DNA of 64,000 bases from Sulfurihydrogenibium sp. YO3AOP1. GTDB lineage: Bacteria; Aquificota; Aquificia; Aquificales; Hydrogenothermaceae. The notes beneath the pieces were generated by a model. That model did not search any database and was not told where the DNA came from. It saw only the letters and a program-made list of their open reading frames with translations. Positions 32,946 through 49,752 of this stretch are shown piece after piece. The translations under genes were made by a program, and so were the position numbers. The stretch is taken from the NCBI RefSeq assembly GCF_000020325.1, contig NC_010730.1:484001-548000 (forward strand), written 5' to 3'. How positions within the stretch are numbered: the first letter of the stretch is position 1; each line of letters starts with the position of its first letter.

Positions 32946-33320
32946 TTATTTCGCAAACGGTAGCAACTTAATTATTAACTCTATCGCATCTTTGTTTATG
33001 AAGATGATTAAGAATGCCAAAACGATAAACATAATAGTAAACTTTCTATCAAGCTTTAACACTTCTTTTTCAATTTTAGCCTCTAATTCTGTTTTTAATA
33101 ATTCTAACTTTTGATAAACCATATCAATATCAGCCTTTGTAGCAAGTTCTTTAGTAAGCTCATCTTTAAGTTCAAGCTTTTTTTGCTGTGCTAAGCTTTC
33201 TGATTTTTTATCAAGTTCGTTATAAATCAGTTCAATAGTTTGTGCAATCTTTTTAGCTTCTTCTTTTCCTACCTTTTGTTCTAACTTCTCCAAAAGCTCA
33301 TAATCTATAACGTAAGCCAT
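32946..33320 (-). CDS. coiled-coil protein with C-terminal membrane anchor (copy 1)
   Basis: 124 residues: a long charged, coiled-coil N-terminal part (about 5-95) and a single C-terminal membrane helix (FTIMFIVLAFLIIFI), so tail-anchored in topology. It is reminiscent of DUF1640-type coiled-coil proteins, but the assignment is weak. A near-identical copy of 131 residues lies at 49357-49752, differing mainly by a seven-residue gap before the anchor. Its function is unknown. It is isolated by repeats on both sides. Confidence 0.7.
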   Translation of the reverse strand: MAYVIDYELLEKLEQKVGKEEAKKIAQTIELIYNELDKKSESLAQQKKLELKDELTKELATKADIDMVYQKLELLKTELEAKIEKEVLKLDRKFTIMFIVLAFLIIFINKDAIELIIKLLPFAK

Positions 33321-41186: not shown

Positions 41187-42920
41187 CTACAAACATTTTC
41201 CTTCAGATGTTGGGCATCCACAGTCAAAATCTAAGATTTTTACGTTTGATTTTAATGGCGGATTAACTACTTTTACTCTGTTAATGTAATCAATAGTAAT
41301 GTCATAAGATGGTCTTAATTTTTTAGCATTTTTGCCCATTTTGTATAGATTTCCACCCCAAGATGCTACTACATAAGTTCTGTTAGGGTCAAGGTCTTTT
41401 CCGTTAACTTTTATGTCTGAAATTCTTTGTCCTGTTGGTGCGGAGATTTTTATGGCATATTCAAGACCAAGAGTTCTGCTCATATCTCCGCCTTGTTGGT
41501 AAAGTGGATTTGAGTTAAATACGTTGTCTGCTACATCTTCTAATAGATTTTTAATCTGAGCTCCTGTTAGCTCAAATCTGTAAACATCAGGGTATGTTAT
41601 CGCAGCCATACTGTAAACATCATCTACTGTAATGTTATCTCCGGGTAGAAGTGTTGTTCCCCATCTGTAGCCCGGGTTGAATACTATTTCACAATCTGCT
41701 TCTTCTTTGATTGCATCCATCATTACTCTGTCAAAAGTTGAATAGAATGTATCTCTTTTGTAGAGTATTGTTTCTGTTTTTCCTATAACTTCAGAAAGCT
41801 GTTTTTCATATGGTTCATATAGCTTATTTACAAGGTCTTGGACTTCTTTATCCGGTTTTATAAAGTTTGATGCAACAGGGTATAGTTTATACGCAAAGTT
41901 TGTAATCTTTTTATTTTTAACTTCAAGGTCTAACCTTCCAAGATATTTTCCATGGCTTCCTGCAATGACTATGATTGTATTGTTTACTATCACTGGTTTT
42001 GGTGCTGGGTCGTGGGTGTGTCCGGAAAGGATAATATCAATTCCGTTTACCATTTTTGCAAGAGCTTGGTCTAATGTAAATCCATCGTGAGATAGTAAAA
42101 CTACCACATCAGCTCCTTTACTTCTTACTTCGTCAACAAACTTTTGAAGTCTCTCTGGCTGAATTCCAAATGTCCAGCCTTCTGTAAACTCCTTAGGGTT
42201 TGCTATTGGCGTATAAGGGAAAGAGTTTCCAATGACTGCAACTTTTACACCGCCAACTTCTCTGATTGTGTATGGTTTAAAGATTAACTCGCCCCACATA
42301 TCATCTGCTACGTTTTGAGATATAAACTCTGCTTTGAGATGCTTGTTTACAAGCTCTAAGACTCTGTCTTTTCCGTATGTATACTCCCAATGACCAACCA
42401 TAATGTCAATTCCAAGAGCGTTTTGTGCCTCAACTACCGCTAAACCTTTTGTAAATAATCCAATAGCTGTTCCTTGCCATGTATCGCCAGAATCCATAAA
42501 TAACACTTTATCATTGCCTCTTTCTGCCTTTATCTGTTTAACCAAGGTTGCTATATGTGCTACACCGCCCATCTTTCCGTATTTTTTGGCAAGCTCTTCA
42601 AAGCCGATGTAAGTATCAAAGTAAGCTCTCATTGTATTTGGCTTTATACCGTAGTATTTTAAGAATGCCTTGCCACATAAAAATCCAGGAGTTCCTATTA
42701 GCTCCCTTGCTGAAATTAGTGTAGATGGCTCTCTCCAGTAAAGCGGTTTAATGTGTGCATGTAAATCGCATATGTGTAATAGTGTAACGTTTCCAACAGG
42801 TTTAAAATCAAATAGTTTTTCCGGGTTTAAATCGTTTAATTTTGCAAAAACATCCTCAGCCGCTAATGACAGACCTGCTATTGCAGCAAGATGAAACAGC
42901 TCTCTTCTTGAAATATTCAT
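41187..42920 (-). CDS. soxB: SoxB thiosulfohydrolase
   Basis: Di-manganese periplasmic enzyme that hydrolyses sulfate off the SoxY-bound thiosulfate adduct. 577 residues with a Tat signal (ISRRELFHLAAIAGLSLA). Metal and active-site motifs are CDLHAHIKP, MDSGDTWQGTA, VGHWEYTYG, LLSHDGFTLDQA and LSGHTHDPAP. A 5'-nucleotidase-type C-terminal domain follows. It is the last of the six contiguous sox genes and follows soxA after a short gap containing GGAGG. Confidence 0.97.
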   Translation of the reverse strand: MNISRRELFHLAAIAGLSLAAEDVFAKLNDLNPEKLFDFKPVGNVTLLHICDLHAHIKPLYWREPSTLISARELIGTPGFLCGKAFLKYYGIKPNTMRAYFDTYIGFEELAKKYGKMGGVAHIATLVKQIKAERGNDKVLFMDSGDTWQGTAIGLFTKGLAVVEAQNALGIDIMVGHWEYTYGKDRVLELVNKHLKAEFISQNVADDMWGELIFKPYTIREVGGVKVAVIGNSFPYTPIANPKEFTEGWTFGIQPERLQKFVDEVRSKGADVVVLLSHDGFTLDQALAKMVNGIDIILSGHTHDPAPKPVIVNNTIIVIAGSHGKYLGRLDLEVKNKKITNFAYKLYPVASNFIKPDKEVQDLVNKLYEPYEKQLSEVIGKTETILYKRDTFYSTFDRVMMDAIKEEADCEIVFNPGYRWGTTLLPGDNITVDDVYSMAAITYPDVYRFELTGAQIKNLLEDVADNVFNSNPLYQQGGDMSRTLGLEYAIKISAPTGQRISDIKVNGKDLDPNRTYVVASWGGNLYKMGKNAKKLRPSYDITIDYINRVKVVNPPLKSNVKILDFDCGCPTSEGKCL

Positions 42921-42940: not shown

Positions 42941-43747
42941 TTATCTAACAAGTCCTGGTGCTTCTATAGTTGCTCCATTTGCTAATGATGTTACATAAAG
43001 CTCTAATGCTACCATCTCTTTTGAACCAAGAGGCAGAATTTTCATACTTGCTTGACTCATACATTGTTGAAATCTTTGTTCTATTGTTACAACTTTACTT
43101 TGTGTCATTCTATAACCCGGCCAATGGGCAGCAGCTGTTGTTCCTTTTATTCCATTAAATTCATGTCCAAGAGGATTTAATTTCTGCATTCTCAAAACCA
43201 ATCCAGCAGCATACTCATGACAGGCTTGGCATGATAGATTTCTTTTTCCTCTTTTTAATTCAAACACATACTTTCCGTAATCATAGTACGCTTTAACAAC
43301 AGGATTGGATGATGTATCTACGTTAATTTTTTCTCCAGATGCTATATACTTTAAATATGTAAGTAATGCAGTGTTTTCTTCACTTTTAAGTGGGAAAGGG
43401 TTTTCAACGCCTTGATTTAGCTTTTGACACATCTGAATTCTTTGCTGTAGTGATATTACAGCGTTTAATTTTTCGTTGTATTTTGGATAAGTTCCAACAG
43501 CTTTTTTAAGTTTTTCTTCACTGTGGCAAGATGCACAGGATTTATTTGATTTTCCCATAGGTGTATTAAACAGCTTTCCGCCAACTTCCTGAGCAAAAAC
43601 TTCTCCCGGATTTATACCGGTTTTATATAATGCTAAATCCTCTTCTGATATAGCTTGCCCAGCTTCTTGTGAAATTGCTTTATTTATGCCAAATGCCGAA
43701 GCTAAAACCAAGGCTCCAAAAAGCAATAGTTTACCCTTTAATTTCAT
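42941..43747 (-). CDS. soxA: SoxA cytochrome subunit of SoxAX
   Basis: Joins thiosulfate to the SoxY carrier cysteine. About 268 residues: signal peptide (KLLLFGALVLASAFGINKA), two c-type haem sites CASCHS and CQACHE (di-haem SoxA), and the catalytic cysteine ligand in RFQQCMSQASM. GTTAAAHWPGYRMTQ is a SoxA signature. The start ATG at 43747 sits ten bases after GGGAGG; a TTG two codons earlier would be too close. A terminator-like hairpin separates it from soxZ. Confidence 0.95.
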   Translation of the reverse strand: MKLKGKLLLFGALVLASAFGINKAISQEAGQAISEEDLALYKTGINPGEVFAQEVGGKLFNTPMGKSNKSCASCHSEEKLKKAVGTYPKYNEKLNAVISLQQRIQMCQKLNQGVENPFPLKSEENTALLTYLKYIASGEKINVDTSSNPVVKAYYDYGKYVFELKRGKRNLSCQACHEYAAGLVLRMQKLNPLGHEFNGIKGTTAAAHWPGYRMTQSKVVTIEQRFQQCMSQASMKILPLGSKEMVALELYVTSLANGATIEAPGLVR

Positions 43748-43775
43748 AGCCAATTTTCCTCCCTTAAGGAATTTT

Positions 43776-43810: not shown

Positions 43811-44140
43811 TTATCCTACGTTTATGTCGATTACTTTTTCTGTAACGTCTCCTTTGTTATCTTTCCAAATGATTTTTAAAGGTGCAGTTTTGGTAGCTTT
43901 TACATAGAAAGAGATAAATGGATTTACACTTACAGAACCAGAAAGTTTCATGGTAGTGATTTTTTCATTTCCATAATATACTTCTACGTCTGTAATGTAG
44001 TTAGCTGCGATATACTTTCCAGATTCTTTGTCTTTTACTAAACCTGTGTCCATTGGGTGCATTATAACTGTATTAACTTTGATTAAGTCATCTTTTTTGT
44101 AATCTTTTGGGTCTATTTTTACCATTGCTGTTCTTGGCAT
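43811..44140 (-). CDS. soxZ: SoxZ
   Basis: 109-residue immunoglobulin-fold partner of SoxY in the SoxYZ sulfur-carrier complex. VIMHPMDTGLVKDKESGKYI and ITTMKLSGSVSVNPFISFYV are characteristic, as is the final GDVTEKVIDINVG. It has no signal peptide and is expected to be exported with SoxY. The gene lies 24 bases after soxY. Confidence 0.95.
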   Translation of the reverse strand: MPRTAMVKIDPKDYKKDDLIKVNTVIMHPMDTGLVKDKESGKYIAANYITDVEVYYGNEKITTMKLSGSVSVNPFISFYVKATKTAPLKIIWKDNKGDVTEKVIDINVG

Positions 44141-44164: not shown

Positions 44165-44632
44165 TTATCCACATCCGCCTATTGTAACTTTTACAGGCTT
44201 CTGTGCTTTAATGAAGCTACCATCTGCAAGTTGTGCTATTGCGACAACGTTCATAGATTCTGCAAGTCTTATTCTTGTCGAGATGTAAGCCTTTCCGTTA
44301 GCCGGAGTAAACTCAACGCTCATCGTACGAGCATTATGGTTTTTATCTGCTAAAATATGAATTGCTTTAATCTGCTCTATTGGTAGTTCTACTTCTACAG
44401 TAACCGGTACAACAGCCCCGTTTTCTGCAATCTCCGGAGCAATAAGCTTTACTTTGTCTGAATCAGCAACTGTTTTTCCGCCGGTAATTTCTTTTAATGC
44501 TTCTTCATAAGGTTTTTTTGGTGGTGGTGCGTCTGCAAGCTCAACAGCAAAGACATTAGATAACAATGAGCTGCCGAACGTTAGACTGGAAACAGCCAAC
44601 GCTGCTCCTTTTAAAAGCTCTCTTCTGTTCAT
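44165..44632 (-). CDS. soxY: SoxY sulfur-carrier protein
   Basis: Periplasmic carrier to which sulfur intermediates are covalently bound. 155 residues with a Tat signal (MNRRELLKGAALAVSSLTFG) and the C-terminal swinging-arm GGCG with the carrier cysteine as penultimate residue. It is preceded by AGGAGG and lies between the SoxW-like thioredoxin and soxZ. Confidence 0.97.
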   Translation of the reverse strand: MNRRELLKGAALAVSSLTFGSSLLSNVFAVELADAPPPKKPYEEALKEITGGKTVADSDKVKLIAPEIAENGAVVPVTVEVELPIEQIKAIHILADKNHNARTMSVEFTPANGKAYISTRIRLAESMNVVAIAQLADGSFIKAQKPVKVTIGGCG

Positions 44633-44643
44633 AAAAATACCTC

Positions 44644-45090
44644 CTAATTTGTTTTCATAAAAAATTCGTTCATATCCATCGTTTTATAACTTCCGGATGA
44701 GAAATACTCTAAAATTTTAACAAAATCTTTTTCTTCCCAGGCTCCAAAGATTGCTTTAATCTTCTTTCCGTCTGGTTCTAAGAAATAAAACATCGGCGTT
44801 CCTACAAATCCGTATTTTTTTCTAAACTCTATGCCTTCTTTACTGCATTTTCTTAATTTTACAGGAACAAACTGCCTATTTAACATATCTTCAACTTTTC
44901 TACTGTCAAATACTTTAAAATCCATTATATCGCAGTAATGACAAGATGGTGAGTAAATATACACAAAAACAAGCTTATTCTCTTTTTTTGCTATTTCAAA
45001 AGCTTTATCAAGAGGGACCCAGTTTATTTCTGCATTTGAAATACCAAACACAGTTAATATAAATATCAAAATAAAACTTTTAAGCTTCAT
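44644..45090 (-). CDS. soxW: SoxW-like periplasmic thioredoxin
   Basis: 148 residues with a signal peptide (about 1-20) and a thioredoxin fold with CHYC active site (YSPSCHYCDIMDF), followed by the cis-Pro segment FVGTPMFYFLEPDG. Proteins like this reduce SoxY or other periplasmic disulfides. It lies three bases after soxX and 11 before soxY, fully within the sox operon. The symbol reflects position and fold and not proven function. Confidence 0.8.
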   Translation of the reverse strand: MKLKSFILIFILTVFGISNAEINWVPLDKAFEIAKKENKLVFVYIYSPSCHYCDIMDFKVFDSRKVEDMLNRQFVPVKLRKCSKEGIEFRKKYGFVGTPMFYFLEPDGKKIKAIFGAWEEKDFVKILEYFSSGSYKTMDMNEFFMKTN

Positions 45091-45093
45091 ACA

Positions 45094-45645
45094 TTACTCC
45101 TGACTTAGTACATATGCTGTTAACTGGCAAACTTCTTCGTATGTTAGCTGTCCTGTTGTAATTTGAACTGTCATTATATGAAAGTATGGAATATTTTCTA
45201 AATCCTTAGGAATCAATATTCTTCCATCAGCGATTTTTTGATATAGCCAATCTACGGTTTTTTCCTCTCCTCTATAATTCGGAGCTTTAAAAAGTCCGTT
45301 TTTATAACCTGTTAAATCTGGCCCTATGTTTCCACATCCTTTTGTATCCTTAGCACAATGACAAGCAACGCAGTTTCCTTTTGCAACTGTATTAAAAACT
45401 TCTTTTCCTTTTTCAGCCAATTTCTTTAAAGATTCTTTATCTTTTAAATTACATTCAGGAGGAATTGCATACAATCTTGGTTCTGGGGGAACATCTTTTA
45501 GCATTACAGATTTGCCTTCTGGATTTTCTATTCCTGCTTCTTGTAAAGTTAAGGCATACGCACCAATTGCAGTAAGCCCAACCAATCCAGTGATTGTTAA
45601 AAACTTTTTAAGTCCAGTGATTGTTAAAAACTTTTTAAGCTTCAT
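45094..45645 (-). CDS. soxX: SoxX cytochrome subunit of SoxAX
   Basis: Mono-haem partner of SoxA. 183 residues: signal peptide, haem site NCVACHCAKDTKGCGNIGPD (CVACH), and a downstream methionine ligand candidate in YFHIMTVQITT. The signal region contains an exact nine-residue repeat (KKFLTITGL twice), encoded by a perfect 27-bp tandem duplication at 45586-45639. It heads soxXWYZAB and is preceded by GGGAGG and a sigma-54-like promoter. Confidence 0.93.
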   Translation of the reverse strand: MKLKKFLTITGLKKFLTITGLVGLTAIGAYALTLQEAGIENPEGKSVMLKDVPPEPRLYAIPPECNLKDKESLKKLAEKGKEVFNTVAKGNCVACHCAKDTKGCGNIGPDLTGYKNGLFKAPNYRGEEKTVDWLYQKIADGRILIPKDLENIPYFHIMTVQITTGQLTYEEVCQLTAYVLSQE

Positions 45646-45677
45646 TTTAACCTCCCATCTTTTTGTTAAAAAATTTT

Positions 45678-45696
45678 AATACAAATTCTATGCCAA
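45678..45696 (-). promoter_or_regulatory. sigma-54-like promoter of the sox operon
   Basis: The minus-strand sequence TTGGCATAGAATTTGTATT (45696 to 45678) fits the -24/-12 pattern TTGGCAC-N5-TTGC with correct GG-N10-G spacing. The -12 C is T. The predicted start is near 45666, about 20 bases before the soxX ATG. Confidence 0.6.
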
Positions 45697-45735
45697 TTTT
45701 TGGGAGGCTTAAATGCTTGTTATGACAAAAACCTA

Positions 45736-45772
45736 TGTCCCAAATGGAACATTTTTTGTCCCAAATGGAACA
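45736..45772 (-). promoter_or_regulatory. tandem activator-binding dyads upstream of soxX
   Basis: Two exact copies of the 16-bp dyad TGTCCCAAATGGAACA at 45736-45751 and 45757-45772, 21 bp apart, or two helical turns. Each is an inverted repeat (TGTYCC-N4-GGRACA). They lie about 75-100 bp upstream of the predicted sigma-54 start, as expected for an NtrC-type activator. They overlap the end of fccB1 only marginally. Confidence 0.65.
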
Positions 45773-45774
45773 TT

Positions 45775-47052
45775 TTATCCGAACATCTCTCTCCATAGTC
45801 CTTTTGCCCATTCATAGTATCTTTTAACATTAACTTCTTTTCTTATATTGTCCTCTCTATGAATAGGTGTAACTGTTTTTGTTTCTAAGTTTAATTTAAA
45901 TGAAGTTTCAGACATCACAGCTTCTTTATCGCTGACCATAGAATAACAAACAACCATTAAAAGCTCTTCTTGCTTGTATTTCTTTCCTGTAAGCCTTTCA
46001 TTTATTATGTTTGCAACGGCTTTTCCTTGCGTGTTAGCACCAAATCCAGACTTTGGAAGAAAAGACCTTGCAGAATCTCCTATTACAAACACATTAGGAA
46101 CTTTTGTCTCAAATGTAAAAGTATCTACCTCAACCCATTTTTGACCTTTTTCTAAGAGACCTATCTTTTCAATCAAGCTTGATGCTTTCATCGGTGGAAT
46201 GATGTTCGCTATATCAAATTTAAACTCTCCGTTAGAAGTTTTTATTACTTTTTTCATATAATCTATATCTTTTATTGTTGTTCCTGTTATATACTCAGCA
46301 TATCCTTTGTACAGCTCATAATATGCATTCATGAATCCTTCTGAATTAATTATTGGTCTTTCGTTTTCATCTATAAAGTACAGCTTTGCTTTTAGATTTC
46401 TTCTTTTTAGATAGTTTAATACTAATGCTGCCCTTTCATACGGTGCTGGTGGACATCTGTAAGGATAGGATGGTACGGTCATCACAACATCTCCACCTTC
46501 AAACTCACTTAAAAGTTTTTTTAGATACAGATGTTCTCCGCCCGGTTTAAATGCTGGTGGATAGTAAAGAAGCATCTCTTTCTGACCTTCTTTTATATCA
46601 TAATCAATACCCGGAGATAATACTAAAAAGTCATACTCAATTTTGCTTTTGTTTGTATAAATAACTTTTTTATCTAAGTCTACATTATCAACTTCTTCAT
46701 GTAAAACTTTTATGTTGTGCTTAACAGTTAGGTTATTGTATGGATAACATAGCTTTGAATACTCCATAATATCTCCAATATACAGATTACTCATCGGACA
46801 GGAAACAAAAAACTCATTTTTTTCAATGAGTAATATATCCACATCTTTATTATGCTTTCTCAAAGATATGGCAGCACTTATTCCTCCATACCCACCACCT
46901 ATGATAACTACCCTTGCCTTTTTAGATGCTAAGCTTGGTCTTTCCTCTTTTGCATAGGCTGAAGTTTGAAAGTTAATTAACGTTGATGCTGATAATGCAG
47001 CTGTCCCAACTAAAAAATCTCTTCTACTAACATTTAATTTGTTCTTTGGCAT
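45775..47052 (-). CDS. fccB: flavocytochrome c sulfide dehydrogenase-type flavoprotein (copy 1)
   Basis: About 425 residues. Tat signal (VSRRDFLVGTAALSAS), FAD dinucleotide-binding motif ARVVIIGGGYGGISAA, the FVSCPMSNLYIG redox-cysteine segment and a second conserved region YRCPPAPYERAALVL. The C-terminal FAD contact is VFVIGDSA. These match FccB/SoxF, the flavin subunit that oxidises sulfide. The start is the ATG at 47052, ten bases after GGAGG, and it overlaps the Rieske gene by 26 bases. No cytochrome subunit FccA is adjacent; the Rieske protein may be the electron partner. Confidence 0.88.
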   Translation of the reverse strand: MPKNKLNVSRRDFLVGTAALSASTLINFQTSAYAKEERPSLASKKARVVIIGGGYGGISAAISLRKHNKDVDILLIEKNEFFVSCPMSNLYIGDIMEYSKLCYPYNNLTVKHNIKVLHEEVDNVDLDKKVIYTNKSKIEYDFLVLSPGIDYDIKEGQKEMLLYYPPAFKPGGEHLYLKKLLSEFEGGDVVMTVPSYPYRCPPAPYERAALVLNYLKRRNLKAKLYFIDENERPIINSEGFMNAYYELYKGYAEYITGTTIKDIDYMKKVIKTSNGEFKFDIANIIPPMKASSLIEKIGLLEKGQKWVEVDTFTFETKVPNVFVIGDSARSFLPKSGFGANTQGKAVANIINERLTGKKYKQEELLMVVCYSMVSDKEAVMSETSFKLNLETKTVTPIHREDNIRKEVNVKRYYEWAKGLWREMFG

Positions 47053-47743
47053 ACTTCCCAACCTCCATAACTATGGTTTTATCTGGAGTCTCTTTTGCCT
47101 TTCTAATATTTCCATACTGTGCAATAAGGTCTGATTTATACATATCAAAAAACTCTCCAAATTGGTCTGGTCCAATCACACCAGCGGCATAAATTATATC
47201 ATTTTCTTCTATAAGTTCTATTGCAGCAAGCGGATATTCTGCCGGTCCTTCTAACACCTGACCCCCTTTATTAATATCGTATACAGACATGTGAGCACAG
47301 CATTGGATTACTCCACTTCTTCCAGTTGCTTGTGATTTTTCTGTTGGTGGATAGTAATTAATTAATGAGAAATCTTTAGTTGGATAAGCCCATTGGTGAG
47401 GACATATTGCACTGTAAGCTACAATGCTTTTATTTTTACCTATTCCACCTTTGAATTCGTATTCTTTTCCATTGTTTAGCTTAATTTTAGCAGGCTTAAT
47501 TTCTGACCCAGTATTGATTAAATAGCAAGGAGTAGAAGCATAGGGATAAAAGAATAAAAGAGCGGTATTTGGCTGAATATCAGATGTACTAAAAGGTTGA
47601 CCGTTTTCTTTTACGAGCATTGTTTTTTGGTATGCTTTATAAAGCTCTTTTTCTTGGGCAAGAAGCTTATTAAAAATAGATGGATTAACCATCATCTCTA
47701 TTGCAATAACAGAACATGTTTTTAAAAGCGTCCTTCTATCCAT
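47027..47743 (-). CDS. Rieske 2Fe-2S protein linked to sulfide dehydrogenase
   Basis: 238 residues: Tat-like start MDRRTLLKTCSVIAIEMMVN, and Rieske ligands in SAICPHQWAYP (CxH) and VIQCCAHMSVYD (CxxH). The spacing between the two boxes is much longer than in bc1-type Rieske proteins. A long C-terminal extension follows. It is coupled with fccB1 downstream by a 26-base overlap, so I infer electron transfer from the flavoprotein. A terminator separates it from fccB2. Confidence 0.85.
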   Translation of the reverse strand: MDRRTLLKTCSVIAIEMMVNPSIFNKLLAQEKELYKAYQKTMLVKENGQPFSTSDIQPNTALLFFYPYASTPCYLINTGSEIKPAKIKLNNGKEYEFKGGIGKNKSIVAYSAICPHQWAYPTKDFSLINYYPPTEKSQATGRSGVIQCCAHMSVYDINKGGQVLEGPAEYPLAAIELIEENDIIYAAGVIGPDQFGEFFDMYKSDLIAQYGNIRKAKETPDKTIVMEVGKYAKEQIKC

Positions 47744-49356: not shown

Positions 49357-49752
49357 TTATTTCGCAAATGGTAAAAGTTTGATTATTAACTCTATCGCAT
49401 CTTTGTTTATGAAAATAATTAAGAAAGCTAAGATTATGAACATCGTTGTAAACTTTTTATCAATCTTCTGTATATCATTTTGCAATTTTAATACTTCTTT
49501 GTCTATCTTGGCCTCTAATTCAGTTTTTAATAATTCTAACTTTTGATAAACCATATCAATATCAGCCTTTGTAGCAAGTTCTTTAGTAAGCTCATCTTTA
49601 AGTTCAAGCTTTTTTTGCTGTGCTAAGCTTTCTGATTTTTTATCAAGTTCGTTATAAATCAGTTCAATAGTTTGTGCAATCTTTTTAGCTTCTTCTTTTC
49701 CTACCTTTTGTTCTAACTTCTCCAAAAGCTCATAATCTATAACGTAAGCCAT
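49357..49752 (-). CDS. coiled-coil protein with C-terminal membrane anchor (copy 2)
   Basis: 131 residues, a second copy of the 32946-33320 gene. The first 88 residues are identical and the DNA matches almost base for base from the upstream leader (AGCTAATAATAAAAATTT) to about 49530. The 3' part diverges, with an extra KLQNDIQKI-like heptad before the membrane helix. It is a tail-anchored coiled-coil protein of unknown function. The extra seven residues equal one coiled-coil heptad, so register is kept. Confidence 0.7.
   Translation of the reverse strand: MAYVIDYELLEKLEQKVGKEEAKKIAQTIELIYNELDKKSESLAQQKKLELKDELTKELATKADIDMVYQKLELLKTELEAKIDKEVLKLQNDIQKIDKKFTTMFIILAFLIIFINKDAIELIIKLLPFAK

Follow-up and report, generated by a model that had tools for sequence, protein, structure and literature searches.

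In Sulfurihydrogenibium sp. YO3AOP1, the operon soxX-trx-soxYZAB is very probably driven by an enhancer-dependent sigma-54 promoter that would be activated by an ortholog of the response regulator TspR, acting on two dyads upstream of soxX. The promoter lies in a 64,000-nucleotide stretch of the genome, hereafter the window, and the features considered are collected in Table 1. Judging from sequence, it appears that this hot-spring sulfur bacterium uses the same activator, site, and sigma-54 promoter for sox as the distant, acid-loving Acidithiobacillus caldus. The TspR/sigma-54 sox circuit has already been described in Acidithiobacillia, and the new element would be its occurrence in Aquificota. 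That a thermophilic phylum so far removed shares the operator, the recognition helix, and the kind of promoter at sox indicates that regulator and operator have been kept in step across phyla, whether by descent or by transfer. It also provides a rule by which sox control in hot-spring Aquificota can be predicted and directly tested, and it hints at a larger sulfur-linked regulon, which may include putative transporters in Nitrospirota and Desulfobulbaceae and a candidate small RNA in this genus.

How sox is regulated is established for a few bacteria, and the TspSR-sigma54 system of A. caldus is among the tested cases. In that organism phosphorylated TspR is reported to bind an upstream activating sequence (UAS), TGTCCCAAATGGGACA, and thereby to initiate sigma-54-dependent transcription of a sox cluster, and thiosulfate is called the potential signal (Li et al. 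2017, cited in PMC6335251). TcsS/TcsR of iron-sulfur-oxidising Acidithiobacillus is stated to be orthologous to TspS/TspR (PMC12194929). The A. caldus system resembles the present one in the dyad, the sigma-54 -24/-12 promoter, soxX as the first gene, the TspR-type regulator, and the TspS-type kinase. It differs from the arrangement seen here, which belongs to another phylum and has two tandem dyads 21 bp apart, an unlinked regulator, and a gene for a PhnD-type binding protein alongside that of the kinase. The operon genes are also ordered differently, as soxX-trx-soxYZAB here and soxXYZA-hyp-soxB in A. caldus. TcsS/TcsR, as described, adjoins tetH-doxDA (tetrathionate pathway), whereas the TspS/TspR-type system here is tied to sox.

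Table 1. Features discussed in the text. Positions are those of the window unless preceded by a contig (C1) or locus (L) label.
Feature	Position	Strand	Basis or remark
soxB	41187-42920	minus	Pfam 5_nucleotid_C + Metallophos; position; 75-88% identity to relatives' SoxB-position genes
soxA	42941-43753	minus	Pfam SoxA-TsdA_cyt-c 3e-34
soxZ	43811-44140	minus	Pfam SoxZ 9e-29
soxY	44165-44632	minus	Pfam SoxY 2e-37
Thioredoxin-like protein	44644-45090	minus	Pfam Thioredox_DsbH / Thioredoxin_2
soxX-type cytochrome c, operon gene 1	45094-45645 (ATG at 45645)	minus	Pfam Cytochrom_C; leads conserved order soxX-trx-soxYZAB
Predicted transcription start	45669	minus	Inferred from -24/-12 position, 12 bp past -12
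Sigma-54 -24/-12 element TTGGCATAGAATTTGT	45681-45696	minus	One of 18 genome matches; kept in 25 of 27 family soxX promoters
Proximal upstream activator dyad (proposed)	45736-45751	minus	Exact TGTCCCAAATGGAACA match; conserved
Distal upstream activator dyad (proposed TspR site)	45757-45772	minus	Exact TGTCCCAAATGGAACA match; pairs kept in relatives
Flavocytochrome c sulfide dehydrogenase-type flavoprotein	45775-47061	minus	Pfam FCSD_central; ends 3 bp before distal dyad
PhnD-type periplasmic binding protein	C1:604542-605351 (L019:1043-1852)		Directly before TspS-like kinase gene
TspR-like NtrC-family response regulator	C1:606897-608225		Receiver + Sigma54_activat + HTH_8
Candidate small RNA, ~80 nt	C1:226192-226272 (with dyads: C1:226091-226272 = L004:1501-1682)		Conserved; starts at predicted sigma-54 start
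Loci with TspR ortholog, dyads, and soxX in that order	L145-L149, L157, L161-L163, L166-L169, L171-L173, L175

The first-pass annotation had placed a sigma-54 promoter with paired dyads before soxX. Both the elements and their coordinates were confirmed, and they are conserved across the family against near-zero controls. The two copies of TGTCCCAAATGGAACA before soxX are identical, are spaced 21 bp start to start with a 5-bp gap, and share 15 of 16 bases with the A. caldus TspR site; each is an imperfect palindrome because its arms, TGTCCC / TGTTCC, differ at one base. Their centres fall at about -95 (distal) and -74 (proximal) relative to the predicted soxX start. The -24/-12 element, TTGGCATAGAATTTGTATT, extends downwards from 45696 on the minus strand, and its GG-to-GT spacing fits sigma-54; at -12 it has the doublet GT where GC is preferred, and relatives mostly have TTGC. 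The predicted 5' leader of soxX is ~24 nt long, with GGGAGGT as the Shine-Dalgarno sequence. Upstream of sox, a Rieske protein gene accompanies the flavocytochrome-type gene on the same strand.

Genome-wide searches set these elements apart from the background. When TGTYCC-N4-GGRACA was searched without mismatches in the 1,838,442-bp genome, as the first-pass annotation had proposed, the soxX dyad pair supplied the only two sites. The promoter pattern TTGGCAY-N5-TTGY has 18 exact matches, versus 2 for a reversed control, and several intergenic matches precede glnB/K-, nrtA/cmpA-, amtB-, and fliA-like genes (named from translated starts), as expected if these are real sigma-54 promoters. Just one of the matches in the genome, that before soxX, is accompanied by the dyads. 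The absence of rpoN had been named beforehand as a finding that would overturn the promoter assignment; the gene is present (PF04552, E 6e-60), and this objection therefore falls away.

With regard to the activator, five proteins with a full sigma-54 activation domain (enhancer-binding proteins) are encoded in the genome. The suggested search for an NtrC-type regulator gene led to one of these, the TspR-like regulator. Gammaproteobacterial sox-linked regulators served as a stand-in for the A. caldus TspR protein in the comparisons, and the TspR-like regulator and the sox-linked proteobacterial regulators are reciprocal best hits at 43-47% identity. The Aquificota regulators and the sox-linked proteobacterial ones share an identical recognition helix segment, LGISRKQLRTKMK, which also occurs unchanged in two of three Nitrospirota/Desulfobulbaceae regulators and in none of the other four enhancer-binding proteins of this genome. 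The gene immediately 5' of the regulator encodes a TspS-like membrane histidine kinase of 520 aa, which matches the kinases preceding sox-linked tspR over nearly its full length (25-27%). The PhnD-type protein is possibly a third, ligand-binding sensor component. A cysteine-rich insert was seen in the kinases of this genome and of Nitrospirota, and a PhnD-type gene also directly precedes the kinase gene in three relatives (G098, G102, and G078). The TspR-like regulator lies ~77 kb from sox and is not adjacent to it; linkage of tspSR and sox is typical in described clusters, but function does not need it. The idea of an NtrC-family activator of sox is thus supported by the TspR ortholog, the matching recognition helix, and the dyad match to the A. 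caldus site, and these comparisons support sharpening it to a TspR-type circuit.

We infer TspR binding, RpoN dependence, the transcript start, and the signal in this organism from these comparisons. The phosphorylated TspR ortholog would bind the two dyads and remodel the RNA polymerase-sigma54 complex at TTGGCATAGAATTTGT, with transcription beginning near 45669. The signal would most likely enter via the TspS-like kinase, perhaps helped by the PhnD-type periplasmic binding protein, and by analogy with A. caldus the stimulus is probably thiosulfate or a related sulfur species.

Conservation in Aquificota was assessed at several levels. Among 136 Aquificota genomes, the exact paired dyad was found in 8, in all cases in a sox locus; in one of these, G101, the pair now stands apart from soxX. 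If up to three mismatches per pair are allowed, paired dyads occur in 21 of 27 Hydrogenothermaceae soxX upstream regions, versus none of the Markov-shuffled controls, and the -24/-12 element (at most one mismatch) occurs in 25 of the 27, versus 2.4% of such controls; two of these regions had short upstream sequence to scan. In many Hydrogenothermaceae soxX directly follows the gene for the TspR ortholog, and the dyads occupy the gap (Table 1), and tspSR adjoins sox or lies within ~6 kb of it in many relatives; the whole PhnD-kinase-regulator block is near sox in G098, G102, and G078. Across 41 family genomes, 25 carry both the regulator and soxX, 2 soxX only, 1 the regulator only, and 13 neither (Fisher p 8e-8, or p 0.006 in genomes at least 90% complete, the related genomes not being independent). 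A search for the regulator in Aquificota beyond Hydrogenothermaceae gave one weaker match above threshold (G123). In one genome, G079, the reading frames of soxX and the regulator are both broken, which was not weighed strongly because sequencing frameshifts could explain it.

Several points count against the main reading, namely the 77-kb distance of the regulator, the GT doublet at -12, the non-exclusive dyad type, and the tree support, and three other explanations were considered. The dyads might be an RNA element, such as a terminator or processing hairpin that ends the flavocytochrome transcript, with no part in sox activation. The distal dyad does start 3 bp beyond the stop codon of that gene, on the minus strand the proximal dyad and the AGGTTTTTG after it have a terminator-like score, and the pair of copies forms a joint fold of -25.9 kcal/mol (z -5.4). 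However, what relatives retain is the dyads, still placed before the -24/-12 element, whereas the upstream gene varies (flavocytochrome or tspR) and the T-run is lost; the work on A. caldus also established the site there as one for an activator (PMC6335251). A terminator as the main role of the dyads was judged unlikely, giving a poor account of their conservation, and an RNA element without any role in activation is very improbable; an additional RNA or terminator side role is possible.

It is likewise highly doubtful that the sigma-54 promoter and its enhancer dyads are served by another enhancer-binding protein of this genome. Five such proteins are encoded, the TspR-like regulator is unlinked to sox here, and in other phyla dyads of this sort are used by different regulators; on the other hand, the remaining four proteins have different recognition helices, and it is only for the TspR-like protein that relatives show linkage to sox and that sox-linked regulators are reciprocal best hits. 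Nor do we give more than slight credence to transcription of sox chiefly from another promoter, of sigma-70 type or by read-through from the flavocytochrome gene, with the sigma-54 element as a relic. Read-through could occur, since the flavocytochrome gene lies on the same strand 130 bp upstream of sox. The genome of a close relative, G101, also bears on this explanation, as its sox operon is intact though the promoter lies on another contig and the TspR-like regulator was not found. Its soxX (98% identical) has different upstream sequence and sits on a separate contig from the promoter and dyads, a separation that may be due to an inserted element having rearranged the region or to a break in the assembly. 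In G101 (loci L151:700-880 and L154) foreign-looking sequence begins at the soxX Shine-Dalgarno site. Against another promoter, the sigma-54 element is strongly conserved throughout the family, and a scan of the sox strand at 45600-46000 found no sigma-70-like match. Activation of the sigma-54 promoter by the TspR ortholog remains the preferred reading.

Beyond Aquificota, an even draw of 369 Gammaproteobacteria genomes contained regulator matches passing 1e-110 in six genomes. Five of the six regulator genes sit directly upstream of soxX-soxY, and a dyad with a TGGCAC-type element is present in the three gammaproteobacterial loci that were read out in full. The phylogenetic tree groups the Aquificota regulators with those of Nitrospirota/Desulfobulbaceae (support 90/83); in this tree the sox-linked proteobacterial regulators stand beside paralogs and are not recovered with Aquificota TspR as one exclusive clade, the joining branches being poorly supported. 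Common descent of the whole TspR-sox circuit is therefore likely but not proven. The plasmid collection gave general NtrC-family matches and no sox-linked TspR.

Dyads of this type are not confined to TspR, as paired TGTCCC-N4-GGGACA sites elsewhere also precede unrelated genes. Many of the matches in a contig pattern scan were unrelated pairs of GC-rich palindromes, such as TGTCCCCGCGGGGACA, mostly from Rhodobacteraceae, so the dyad is not diagnostic by itself. In Rhodobacteraceae (L047, L060, L118, L123) copies of TGTCCCCGCGGGGACA are dispersed, several per 8 kb, and no sox gene was found beside the copies in loci such as these. In Nitrospirota/Desulfobulbaceae (L125, L032, L083, L086, L096, L048), paired TGTCCC-N4-GGGACA-type dyads precede genes for TauE/SafE-like or YeeE/YedE-like membrane proteins (named from reading the sequences), which are putative sulfur-compound transporters. 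The dyads of L125 and L032 are close to TspSR-like genes, and L125, L032, and L048 are near TspSR-like and/or PhnD-type genes. These loci suggest a broader sulfur regulon.

Outside sox and the window, a second paired dyad with a -24-type element was found in this genome in the intergenic region C1:226091-226129. The other one-mismatch dyads examined (1681795 was left out) lie in coding sequence, except for the one before the candidate small RNA. Of the 7 genus genomes, 6 retain the C1:226091-226129 dyads; what comes after these is not a gene but a conserved RNA of ~80 nt, which carries GCUCCUGCUGC, a CCUCCU anti-Shine-Dalgarno-like motif, and an intrinsic-terminator hairpin at its end. A covariance model detected this candidate in all seven genus genomes (E ~1e-21 to 1e-23) and, when G098 was left out of model building, found it there as well (E 8e-22); the model found nothing comparable in the rest of the family, and Rfam gave no credible match. 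In G098 the dyads before the candidate have been lost, and upstream there is a transposase-like gene. Activity in the clade to which the window belongs is uncertain, because the -12 doublet of the small-RNA promoter is degenerate there (TTTTA). Sigma-54-controlled small RNAs are known, for example in the LuxO-Qrr system, which serves as a working analogy here though its targets and signal differ. On the sequence evidence, there seems to be about an even chance that, within this genus, the TspR-type activator has a small RNA as a further target. If so, sulfur sensing would feed through this RNA into post-transcriptional control, with sox itself as a possible target. Pairing of the candidate with the soxX leader is predicted in G000 and is weaker in a relative.

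Elsewhere in the window, two near-identical small ORFs (32946-33320 and 49357-49752) belong to one family and represent duplicate genes.
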